This document shows, in pieces, positions 23,200 to 59,692 of a stretch of 64,000 bases of DNA. Positions within the stretch are counted from its first letter, which is position 1; every line of letters starts with the position of its first letter. This DNA comes from Clostridiaceae bacterium (GTDB lineage Bacteria; Bacillota; Clostridia; Peptostreptococcales; Natronincolaceae): NCBI GenBank assembly GCA_020832135.1, contig JAFIFG010000101.1, positions 1-64,000 on the forward strand, in the 5' to 3' direction. The notes beneath the pieces were generated by a model. That model was not told the origin of the DNA, did no database searches, and saw nothing but the letters and a program-made list of their open reading frames with translations. A program made the position numbers and the translations under genes.

Positions 23200-23478
23200 T
23201 TAAAAACTATGAAGAGAAGAGTATATATAGGAAGTAGTTTTAGCGAGTTGGTGATGGTGAGAGACCAATACGAAGCCTGTATAGAAAAACATCTCTGAGT
23301 TCCTAACCGAAATACGTAAGTAAAGTAGACTTAGGCGGAGCCAAACCGTTATCTTTTGGACAGTATCGAATACTATTATTCCGTACTGGTTAAGATGAGC
23401 AATACGCTAATTAAGGTGGTACCGCGGAGACAATGATGTCCTTCGTCCTTTTCAATAGGATGAAGGGCTTTTTTTAAT
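23200..23478 (+). ncRNA. T-box riboswitch leader of asnA
   Basis: The leader carries the diagnostic T-box sequence AAGGTGGTACCGCG (23413-23426), which forms the antiterminator bulge that binds the tRNA acceptor end. A terminator hairpin follows (CCTTCGTCC...GGATGAAGG plus a T7 run, 23440-23475). The AGTAGTTTTAGCGAG region near 23230 fits Stem I. A candidate specifier codon is AAC (Asn) at 23305-23307 in CCTAACCGA, fitting the downstream asparagine synthetase; the codon choice is inferred. Uncharged tRNA-Asn would stabilise the antiterminator and switch the gene on. Confidence 0.93.
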
Positions 23479-42355: not shown

Positions 42356-42472
42356 ATAAAAGACTATTTAAATTCAGTATGCTTAGTACATTTAAAATAA
42401 TAGAATCATGTAAGCATAACCGACTAGTCTTTAAATCCATACACCGTGAATTTAAAAAGTATTAAGCTAAAT

Positions 42473-42630
42473 AAGCAGGTCTCCTGGCTTAGGTTCATCG
42501 TCTTTTTACGTCTTCCCGGTAAAAACCAGTGACATATATTGTAAAAGACTCACCATTACAGTGGCGGGACCGCGTTGGACTTTCACCAACTTCCCTTATT
42601 ATTTCCTTTCGGAAACTTATTCAACATAAT
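42473..42630 (-). ncRNA. Cobalamin (B12) riboswitch controlling cbiM-cbiQ-cbiO
   Basis: Read on the minus strand, the order is AAGGGAAGTTGGTGAAAGTC, a CCAACGCGGTCCCGCCACTG stretch with the B12-box GCCACTG (42559-42565), TCACTGG, CCGGGAAGACG and finally AAGCCAGGAGACCTGC (about 42472-42487). These are the conserved blocks of the cobalamin aptamer. A terminator hairpin follows. Binding of adenosylcobalamin would repress the cobalt transporter. Confidence 0.95.
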
Positions 42631-42645
42631 ATTCAGTTTAATTGA

Positions 42646-47757: not shown

Positions 47758-48929
47758 TTAAAGGCTTCTTGTACAACTTCAGCTACTCTCTTCTCTTTAG
47801 AAAGCGAATAAAGTGTAATAACAGCTATGATTCCAGCAGCACCACCTATAAAGTTTAGTAGTCTATACCCCCCAAGATTATATAACATGGGACCTAGCAC
47901 CACAAAAATCAAACTGCATAAAGAGTGGGAGAAGGAAATAAGTGTCATGAACATTGTTCTTCTCTTTGGATATACTTCTGATGCTAATGTTTGAAATGCT
48001 AAAAATCCTCCATCTAAACCAATGGCATTAATCATAACTACAAGGATGATTACAGGTATAGAACTTAAGAAGGAAAGAGGAAACATAGTTATAGCCATTA
48101 GAATAAATCCTATTTTGGCAGTTCTTAATTTTCCTAATTTATCGCTTAATAGAGTGGCTATGCCAACGCCTACTAAGGTACCAGAATTGGCTATAGAGTA
48201 AATAGAGCCTATATCACTTTGACTTAAAGTAAAGCTTTGGTCTAACCATATGGAAAAAAAGCTAAAAAGAGTCAAGGGTGCTGCTATCATCATAAAAGAA
48301 GCTAGGACAAATTTTTGTGTTGTTCTATTTTTTAACATATCTCCTAATTCATAAAGGTTTACCTTGGAATCAGCTTCAGTTTGCTGATCATTAGGCAGTT
48401 TTAATAAAATTACGAGAGCTAAAGTAGCTACAGAGGATAATATCCAATAGAGGGTCTTTAGTCCAAAATTTTCAACCATATAGGATGCTACAGCTGGACC
48501 TGTTAATATTGCTATTGCAAAGGATATCCGTAGAACTCCGGCGGCTTTTCCCCTTTGTCTATAGGATACAAAATCACTAATATAGGCAATAACTGTTGCT
48601 CCAATAGTTAAAGAACCTATTCCAATAATAATTCTTGATATAGCAAACATATAATGGTGAGTAGATAAACCACTGAAGAAGGTACCAGTTATATAGAATA
48701 TGGTGGCAATAACTAAGCCGTGTTTCTTTCCAATTTTATCCGTCAACATACCAAAAAAAGGAGTTAGGAGCCCTATGAAAGAAAAGCCAATACTTAAGTA
48801 TATTACACTGCTTTTATCTATACCAAAATAGGCAGATAAATAAGGAATAATAGGGTTAATAAAGTTCATTTCAAAGCTTACTAAAAACTGTAATAAGAAA
48901 CAGATCAAGAAAATTAAAAGATAACCCAT
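47754..48929 (-). CDS. Major facilitator superfamily transporter
   Basis: The 391-residue, 12-helix protein has the MFS motif A-like loop FFGMLTDKIGKKHGLVIATIF between helices 2 and 3, and a second half-repeat with LLSDKLGKLRTAKIGF. It is an efflux or uptake carrier of the drug:H+ antiporter-like group. No substrate can be assigned. The gene stands alone; RBS AGGAGGTG precedes the ATG. Confidence 0.88.
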   Translation of the reverse strand: MGYLLIFLICFLLQFLVSFEMNFINPIIPYLSAYFGIDKSSVIYLSIGFSFIGLLTPFFGMLTDKIGKKHGLVIATIFYITGTFFSGLSTHHYMFAISRIIIGIGSLTIGATVIAYISDFVSYRQRGKAAGVLRISFAIAILTGPAVASYMVENFGLKTLYWILSSVATLALVILLKLPNDQQTEADSKVNLYELGDMLKNRTTQKFVLASFMMIAAPLTLFSFFSIWLDQSFTLSQSDIGSIYSIANSGTLVGVGIATLLSDKLGKLRTAKIGFILMAITMFPLSFLSSIPVIILVVMINAIGLDGGFLAFQTLASEVYPKRRTMFMTLISFSHSLCSLIFVVLGPMLYNLGGYRLLNFIGGAAGIIAVITLYSLSKEKRVAEVVQEAFN

Positions 48930-49043
48930 GATGGCACCTCCTTTTTATATATTTACACACCATCTTATTATGTAATATAAACATTAATCTGTAAACACTT
49001 TTAAGGTAAGAAGAAAAAAATTTAAGTTAGGCGGTGATATGCA

Positions 49044-49577
49044 ATGAAGAGAAAAATGATCGTTATGTTGATAATTGCACTTCTTATTATTTCTAGATAT
49101 ACGATATTTGATGATAAGAACAAAGATGCTGTATTACCCCCAGTAGTAGAGGATCAAAATAAAGTATTGCAGGAAGAAAATGTTTTAGTAGATAAAGAAG
49201 AACCTGTTATAGGTGTTAAAGTAGGAAATATAGCTCCTGATTTTATATTGACGGATTTAGATGGAGTAGAAAGAAATTTAGCGGACTATAAAGGCAAAGA
49301 TGTAATGTTGTATTTTTGGGTCTCCACATGACCTCCCTGTAGAAGGCAAATGCCTCAGCTTGATGAGTTTCATCAGCAAAATAAAGAAGATATAGTTATC
49401 CTTACCATCAATATTGGAGAAGATGTAGATACAGTGAAGGAATTTATGGAGGAAGGAAATTATGAAGTGGCAGTATTAATGGACCATGATCTTAAAGTCG
49501 GTATGGGCTATCAAATTATGTATACACCTACTACGATTTTTATCGATAAGGAAGGAATCATTAGAGAAAGACAGTAA
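49044..49577 (+). CDS. TlpA/ResA-like thiol oxidoreductase, probable selenoprotein (UGA = Sec96)
   Basis: The 177-residue protein is membrane-anchored (helix about residues 4-18). A thioredoxin-like fold follows from residue 60 (VGNIAPDFILTDLDGVERNL). In-frame TGA at 49329-49331 lies exactly where family members have the first Cys of WCPPC: the context is YFWVST-(UGA)-PPCRRQMPQ, so the motif is U-P-P-C (Sec96, Cys99). The frame runs on without shift to DEFHQQNKEDIVILTINIGE and a normal C-terminus with the cis-Pro strand MYTPTTIFIDKEG. A hairpin starts 6 bases after the UGA, a possible bSECIS. It is either a disulfide reductase selenoprotein or, less likely, a nonsense mutant. Confidence 0.8.
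49337..49358 (+). promoter_or_regulatory. Candidate bacterial SECIS hairpin
   Basis: Six bases after the UGA, CTG-TAGA-AGGC-AAAT-GCCT-CAG folds into a stem with an internal bulge: 49337-49339 pairs with 49356-49358, and 49344-49347 with 49352-49355. Bacterial SECIS elements lie just downstream of UGA inside the coding sequence. Structural fit to SelB is not tested. Confidence 0.5.
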
Positions 49578-49597
49578 ATATAAATGAAGTATTTAAG

Positions 49598-49622
49598 TGG
49601 AGGTTATATTATATAACCTCCA
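49598..49622. terminator. Bidirectional terminator between selenoprotein gene and DUF1657 gene
   Basis: TGGAGGTTATAT (49598-49609) pairs with ATATAACCTCCA (49611-49622) with almost no loop. Confidence 0.75.
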
Positions 49623-49638
49623 TTTTATATCTCTTAAA

Positions 49639-49908
49639 TTATTGTAACTTATTTTGCTTATTTTTATTTTGTTGTTGTTGTTTTTGTTGATCCATTCCCA
49701 TAGATTGTTGTAAATATTGAGGTTCTTCACTGTTTACAAAATCAGTTCTTGATTGAAGCATTTGAACAGTATTTTCTAAGTTAGTAGCTAATTGATTAAA
49801 CATTTGTTTAGCTTGTTGATCTTCTGTATCCATAGAAAATGTTTTTAAATCTGATTGTAAACCTTTTGCACTATTAAGAGCCTGCTGAAGCTTGTTTATA
49901 GTTGTCAT
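49639..49908 (-). CDS. DUF1657 protein (spore-associated)
   Basis: The 89-residue protein has the DUF1657 pattern: LQSDLKTFSMDTEDQQAKQM, a helical pair, then EEPQYLQQ. A Gln/Lys-rich tail QQKQQQQNKNKQNKLQ follows. Members lie near spoVA genes in sporulating Firmicutes. The function is unknown; a spore role is inferred from family and neighbouring genes. RBS GGAGG lies 11 bases before the ATG. Confidence 0.82.
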   Translation of the reverse strand: MTTINKLQQALNSAKGLQSDLKTFSMDTEDQQAKQMFNQLATNLENTVQMLQSRTDFVNSEEPQYLQQSMGMDQQKQQQQNKNKQNKLQ

Positions 49909-59460: not shown

Positions 59461-59508
59461 ACAGAGAACAAAAAAGCATATAAAGAAAACATGCTAATTG
59501 TTCCCTGT
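59461..59508 (-). terminator. Terminator of the glycine riboswitch expression platform
   Basis: On the minus strand ACAGGGAACAA (59498-59508) pairs with TTGTTCTCTGT (59461-59471, one G-U). An inner AGCAT/ATGCT stem and a T-rich run follow. The left arm overlaps the aptamer's GGACAGGG tail, so glycine binding should prevent termination. Confidence 0.85.
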
Positions 59509-59692
59509 CCTTTTATCTGAAAGTTTCCCTACATAGAATATAGGTTTCTTCGTCGATGCCCTAATGAAAGGGTCTCTCCAGGGGTGTGTCAGATTATTGT
59601 ATAAGACCTGAAAGCTTCGAAATAAGCCTTTAGCAAACTTATTTCTTTCTTCTACGGTTACCCTTGAAAAGGATATCTCCAACAATCTTCAA
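59503..59692 (-). ncRNA. Tandem glycine riboswitch
   Basis: On the minus strand two aptamers follow one another. First: GTTGGAGATATCC (59671-59683), CCGTAGAAGAAAG and CTTTCAGGTCTTA (59602-59614). Second: CCTGGAGAGACCC (59570-59582), ATCGACGAAGAAAC, CTTTCAGATAAAAGGACAGG (about 59504-59523). These match the GGAGA...CACCGAAG...TCAGG(N)AAAGGACAG pattern of glycine aptamers. The terminator that follows overlaps the last block. Confidence 0.9.

Follow-up and report, generated by a model that had tools for sequence, protein, structure and literature searches.

The locus described here lies in a 64,000-nucleotide stretch of DNA (the window) from a bacterium that is related to Alkaliphilus and Natronincola, and it raises two questions: does the TGA codon inside a thioredoxin-like reading frame specify selenocysteine (Sec), and what might the encoded protein still do in this host? 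At 49044-49577 on the forward strand, a single open frame of 177 residues (counting Sec96) extends to a TAA with TGA 49329-49331 as its sole interruption, an arrangement that an earlier sequence-only reading had described and that both the open reading frames and the translation bear out. The TGA stands in the context LYFWVST-U-PPCRRQMPQ, at the first cysteine position of a CPPC motif as that reading had claimed, and orthologues display either TGA or TGT at this place. A plausible ribosome site (AGGCGGTGATATGCA) lies 5' of the ATG, and the readthrough product matched the Pfam models AhpC-TSA (2.8e-25) and Redoxin (3.6e-23). We consider TGA 49329-49331 most likely to be a selenocysteine codon in the active site of a thioredoxin-like protein, a conclusion drawn from comparative sequence evidence. 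Standard-code lists of open reading frames break the gene in two at the TGA, and such a reductase is therefore easily missed here and in relatives.

Identity and fold of the encoded protein

The principal features of the gene, all on the forward strand, are as follows.
49044..49577 (+): putative resA-like selenoprotein gene (open frame, Pfam and orthologues)
49047..49100 (+): N-terminal hydrophobic helix, residues 2-19, presumed membrane anchor (from sequence; model pLDDT only 64-70)
49329..49331 (+): in-frame TGA, probable Sec96, first position of UPPC (TGA or TGT in orthologues at the same codon)
49338..49340 (+): Cys99, presumed resolving cysteine of UPPC (invariant in 7 aligned rows)
49527..49529 (+): Pro162 in YTPTT, presumed cis-proline (invariant in 7 aligned rows)
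49599..49626 (+): inverted repeat resembling a terminator, GGAGGTTATA...TATAACCTCC, with a T-rich stretch behind it (read directly); similar repeats lie 3' of the gene in L054 and L055

An AlphaFold2 model of the protein (mean pLDDT 82.7) consists of one N-terminal helix, a linker (34-40) and a thioredoxin-fold domain that holds U96-P-P-C99 and YTPTT, with the blocks from residue 61 onward at 95-98; it ends in a strand, with no helix after the last strand. The cis-proline strand of the sequence-only reading is present as YTPTT, in which we take Pro162 to be in the cis form by analogy with the thioredoxin fold. The nearest folds are ResA crystal structures within a ResA/TlpA-like fold group, and the fold, the profile matches and the single N-terminal helix together uphold the TlpA/ResA-like identity originally proposed. 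ResA of Bacillus (PDB 1st9, 2h19 and 4nmu) superimposes with an rmsd of 0.8-1.1 across 114-122 columns, at 32-34% identity for the ResA rows, gives the best profile matches and shares the CxxC place and the TPT motif. ResA possesses an N-terminal anchor. Unlike ResA, the window protein has Sec in place of the first cysteine and lacks the last helix. Its best NCBIfam model is ResA (NF002854), with 103.3 bits, below the curated cut-off of 170. Gln102 aligns with a glutamate of ResA 4nmu (the Glu80 place, three residues after the second Cys), a position at which the six orthologues carry Glu and Etrx2 carries Ser.

StoA of B. subtilis and the pneumococcal Etrx lipoproteins belong to the same fold group, and Etrx2 is the best single-sequence PDB match of the window protein. 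The protein differs from StoA in reaching only 69.2 of the 210 bits asked by the StoA model, and from both StoA and Etrx in that its host genome has no detectable CcdA. The selenoprotein gene sits among genes that we judged by eye to be spore genes; a StoA-like action in spore formation would be a guess from these surroundings. Two further NCBIfam models describe thioredoxin-fold (seleno)proteins, NF041054 (ResA-like WAxxUGC) and NF053656 (TUGYCR redoxin), and the window protein stays far short of both, with 48.7 of the 300 and 19.9 of the 100 bits that they require.

UxxC selenoproteins of ResA-like fold are already catalogued, and the window protein would add another. The passages available from the catalogue list a 'Prx-like thiol:disulfide oxidoreductase' (PF00578), a 'Thiol-disulfide isomerase-like protein' (cd02966) and a 'Redoxin family protein' (PF08534) as predicted UxxC selenoproteins (PMC13188914), and the PF00578, PF08534 and cd02966/PF13905 domains recur as predicted UxxC families in the available parts of this and earlier reports (PMC13188914, PMC9312934, PMC2398784, PMC1088965). 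At the level of domain family and UxxC motif, the window protein resembles them. The same catalogue passages contain no link to CcdA and name no Natronincolaceae (PMC13188914), and in the available portion of a 2006 list, no protein of this type is given for Alkaliphilus metalliredigens (PMC1794560). A literature search by title, covering few subscription journals, retrieved no CcdA-linked Sec ResA among the matches listed.

Selenocysteine machinery and Sec/Cys alternation

Results of a genome search for selA, selB, selC and selD demonstrated all four at C50:94387-101793 of the host genome, with scores of 552.7 bits for selA, 385.3 for selB, 72.2 for tRNA-Sec and 394.7 for selD. The host's own selD (G000:C50:100870-101793; L048, L052) also carries an inner TGA, reading SGG-U-AAKIG, and two hairpins lie 3' of its UGA, of which the second bears a GUA loop at a distance of 33 nt.

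Close orthologues of the window gene were sought in 98 genomes (its own included) and in 20 genomes of the host's family, and were present in seven, the window's included. In favour of the sequence-only reading, the orthologues carry TGA or Cys at the UGA position, and their stops are not scattered: TGA occupies the identical codon in the window, Anaerovirgula multivorans (G001), Natronincola peptidivorans (G012) and G010, the latter three representing three other genera (loci L004/L060, L006/L061 and L008). TGT occupies the Sec96 codon in Alkaliphilus peptidifermentans, A. pronyensis and A. transvaalensis (G017, G008 and G002; loci L058, L059 and L062). Downstream of the UGA, the window differs from the three TGA orthologues at 0.21-0.27 of second and 0.48-0.57 of third codon positions; taken over the entire divergence, the alignment shows the codon-position pattern of a coding sequence there.

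TGA also takes the first position of UxxC in at least 12 other ResA-like genes. L030 and L162-L167 came from the matches listed in 393 genomes of the order, and L072, L080, L081 and L092 (Krumholzibacteria MAGs) and L095 (an unplaced MAG) came from a scan of named genomes. An inner TGA in G049 was not counted, as it sits elsewhere than the first position of UxxC. Among the matches listed for a class-level sample of 391 genomes, an inner TGA occurred only in the window's own gene. A quick tree of 95 rows, from which rows below 88 bits and without TGA were left out, needs 6 Sec/Cys changes, of which strongly supported branches force only 2; several branches are long, and no count or direction of changes is claimed. 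SelA was also considered as a marker that might separate Sec from Cys carriers and was set aside, being present in 24 of 26 genomes tested, the three Cys carriers included.

Several of these genes have individual peculiarities. L162 and L163 (G187 and G169) encode ResA-like proteins with WUPYC and adjoin CcdA; they have no bSECIS hairpin of the usual model within 60 nt and could perhaps use another class of element. L072, L080, L081 and L092 are TlpA-like with SPTUPxC, and a strong hairpin with an AGUUG or AGUUA loop follows 16 nt after the UGA. The host genome's only other match to the protein, L112 (G000:C148:23151-23699), is devoid of CxxC and has SWNEASKE instead; L106, L107 and L108 of relatives resemble it, while for L110 and L111 the motif filter is the only indication.

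A candidate bSECIS hairpin downstream of the UGA

Two hairpins were recognised 3' of the UGA.
49344..49355 (+): proximal hairpin AGGC-AAAU-GCCU, the inner stem of the hairpin first proposed (minimum-energy fold)
49358..49377 (+): distal hairpin, candidate bSECIS, GCU(U)GAUGA-GUU-UCAUCAGC, with a G-first 3-nt loop at 49367-49369 (fold and covariation)

The sequence-only reading had placed a hairpin 6 bases after the UGA (CTG..CAG around AGGC-AAAU-GCCU). Its inner stem does fold, but it is weak and its loop is without G. The 40-nt fold of this proximal hairpin is no better than that of shuffles (z = 0.11). A proximal stem of different sequence also folds in L004, L006, L008, L165, L166, L167 and the host's own selD, and the proximal hairpin can be regarded as no more than a weak adjunct to the distal one.

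In the available passages of its description, the bSECIS model has a loop of 3-9 nt with G in the first two positions, a stem of 4-16 bp, a distance of 16-37 nt from the UGA and an energy of -7.5 kcal/mol or lower (PMC13188914). The distal hairpin has this form, with the loop GUU, a spacing of 35 nt after the UGA and 7 pairs including one wobble. Its energy is -4.3 kcal/mol for the isolated stem and -12.3 kcal/mol for the UGA plus 57 nt, and the passages do not give the stretch meant by the -7.5 limit. Testing the region for a bSECIS, as initially suggested, thus had a mixed outcome: the form fits and the stem covaries, but the isolated stem at -4.3 is weaker than the published -7.5.

For a hairpin scan we required G in the first two loop positions and a distance of 16-37 nt from the UGA, and took the energy of the stem alone. 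Stems of -4 kcal/mol or lower, a cut chosen after seeing the table, were present in 14 of 16 TGA genes (near-copies included, namely L165/L167 and the four Krumholzibacteria genes) and in none of 83 Cys homologues; the background at this cut is 3.8% of the 2078 TGA triplets on both strands of the window. The two misses are L162 and L163, which have no model hairpin at -4 kcal/mol. Cut-offs of -2 and -3 again gave 14 of 16 TGA genes versus 4 and 1 of the 83 Cys homologues, -5 and -6 gave 12 of 16 versus 0 of 83, and -7.5 gave 3 of 16 (the window's gene not among them) versus 0 of 83. Not included in this comparison were 17 frames in which no [C/U]xxC motif was recognised (L112 among these), frames above the E-value cut and loci longer than 14 kb.

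The 14 hairpins are not one element. Eight lie at a spacing of 35, comprising the window's clade of four together with L030, L165, L166 and L167, and the others lie at 16-20. Over the eight spacing-35 genes, 62 of the 64 cells of an 8-bp stem pair, and 4 pairs and 13 cells show a double change. None of 500 shuffles attained the observed covariation score or the observed numbers of paired or double-change cells, and slid controls of the stem were 28-50% paired; pairs with double changes (reached by 101/500 shuffles) and pair types (498/500) did not go beyond the shuffles. The eight sequences form two groups, so the independent events are few. To judge from this alignment, compensatory changes have preserved the stem in four more TGA genes, which belong to three other families of the order.

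The contribution of the encoded peptide was gauged by random synonymous codons, drawn with the codon usage of eight window genes for every genome. For L008, L030 and L165-L167, 0.1-0.9% of draws produced a stem as long. The figure was about 7% for the window (p about 0.07) and likewise about 7% for Anaerovirgula and Natronincola, and the window's hairpin barely exceeds what random synonymous coding of its peptide yields. A possible 'fossil bSECIS' in the Alkaliphilus Cys orthologues was rejected: 8 positions pair there, but they also do so in 11-30% of random synonymous draws, and the pairing is therefore no evidence of former Sec. A tandem fold of two hairpins was observed in the window, Anaerovirgula, Natronincola, L165-L167 and the host's own selD, and the tandem hairpins of selD and of G010 are enclosed in a further helix. 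The 57-nt minimum-energy fold of L030 is a different structure that leaves the stem out. An Rfam search of 49250-49450 returned no SECIS among the nine matches listed.

Within one bacterial order, ResA-like proteins have Cys in some lineages and probably Sec in others, with an equidistant hairpin in eight TGA genes and a stem apparently kept by compensatory changes. They form a good set for testing what an extracytoplasmic thiol reductase gains from Sec.

A shortened copy in a host without detectable CcdA

Two flanking regions are of importance for the present state of the gene.
48930..49043 (+): 114-nt gap between an MFS-like gene on the minus strand and the selenoprotein gene (G010 has its CcdA gene here)
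49578..49598 (+): region after the stop, where the orthologues encode 13-17 more residues (alignment)

The downstream half had initially been regarded as intact, which proved wrong, as the 13-17 C-terminal residues of 6/6 orthologues are missing. The stretch from EGxII to the terminator-like repeat, counted by eye, is longer in Natronincola by about 50 nt, a difference that favours a deletion in the window. A remnant of the lost C-terminus was sought in 48700-49900 with five queries, and no significant hit fell outside the part already known to be coding. At columns where the remaining six rows agree, the window has 7 changes plus 2 gaps of 37, against 0-3 of 28-31 for the other rows; a larger count of this kind is expected of a row that, like the window's, lacks a close sister. 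With the three Cys orthologues as outgroup, relative-rate counts of window-only versus other-only changes were 9:10, 10:9 and 11:10, and branch lengths summed from the clade's fork give 0.91 for the window versus about 1.07-1.19 for the six others. An accelerated decay, first considered from the conserved-column excess and the end branch of 0.91, was accordingly dropped; the substitution rate of the window copy is not raised.

The CcdA/DsbD family (PF02683, E 0.001) was searched in 14 genomes, namely the host's own, the six orthologue carriers and seven other TGA carriers. A match was found in 12 of the 14, in 11 of them at 62-216 nt from the ResA-like match and in G116 on a different contig. 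The window's genome (G000) and Natronincola (G012) gave 0 matches at this threshold; the Natronincola genome is 96% complete and retains a full-length ResA-like protein. A ccdA remnant was sought in 48700-49900 and none was found (best E 0.18). In other respects, the gene neighbourhood is for the most part like that in Anaerovirgula, G010 and Natronincola (by eye, first 70 residues).

With a probability of roughly 0.88, we interpret the gene as encoding a membrane-anchored ResA/StoA/Etrx-like thiol-disulfide oxidoreductase with an attacking Sec96-Pro-Pro-Cys99 site and hairpin-aided reading of UGA, in a shortened copy whose host has apparently lost CcdA. The membrane-anchored U-P-P-C reductase originally suggested thus finds support in the Sec machinery, the TGA/Cys alternation and the ResA-like fold, but not in its intact downstream half, and its anchoring is presumed from the N-terminal helix. 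SelB and Sec-tRNA would read UGA 49329-49331 with the aid of the hairpin at 49358-49377. In this lineage the protein would normally work beside CcdA, which would supply the UxxC site with electrons from across the membrane; Sec would attack a disulfide of an exported protein and Cys99 would resolve the mixed selenenylsulfide, the usual chemistry of the family. In the host, CcdA is apparently gone and the C-terminal end apparently deleted, so that this copy is either supplied with electrons by a different donor or an early relict.

It is very improbable that the TGA never specified Sec here and acts as a normal stop, or arose from TGY by point mutation, so that the gene yields a truncated protein of 95 residues or is a simple pseudogene. 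A single step separates TGA from TGT/TGC, and the downstream part contains its own ATG (49350), but three other genera carry TGA at this codon and have complete frames downstream of it, the Sec machinery is full, and the hairpin is tied to TGA genes, all of which contradict this explanation. A sequencing or assembly error at the TGA is hardly credible: the assembly is a draft of 155 contigs, yet the separate assemblies of three other genera bear the same TGA.

A more serious rival accepts a working selenoprotein gene in the ancestor and regards the window's copy as an early relict, its UGA maybe still read but without a role since the loss of CcdA. This is possible, though we incline against it. 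The 13-17 residues missing relative to all six orthologues, the lack of a PF02683 match where 12 of 14 genomes have one, and Gln where ResA and the six orthologues carry Glu speak for it. Against it, the gene has neither a frameshift nor a second stop and retains UxxC, TPTT and the hairpin, its rate is not raised by either the relative-rate or the path-length measure, and the excess at invariant columns is expected of a row without a near sister. Natronincola, moreover, also lacks CcdA and yet has the full-length protein, and Etrx2 has Ser at the Glu80 place. Returning to the Sec-containing reductase, we propose only tentatively that it still works after the host's CcdA loss, given the full-length protein of Natronincola and a window copy that is shortened and evolves no faster. 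If true, an extracytoplasmic UxxC protein would have a CcdA-independent source of electrons, a change that Sec perhaps enabled. The loss of CcdA with retention of the Sec partner offers a natural test of the CcdA dependence of such proteins.

Elsewhere in the window, Rfam detected a T-box leader at 23200-23453 (+), a cobalamin riboswitch at 42457-42635 (-) and a glycine riboswitch at 59495-59591 (-).
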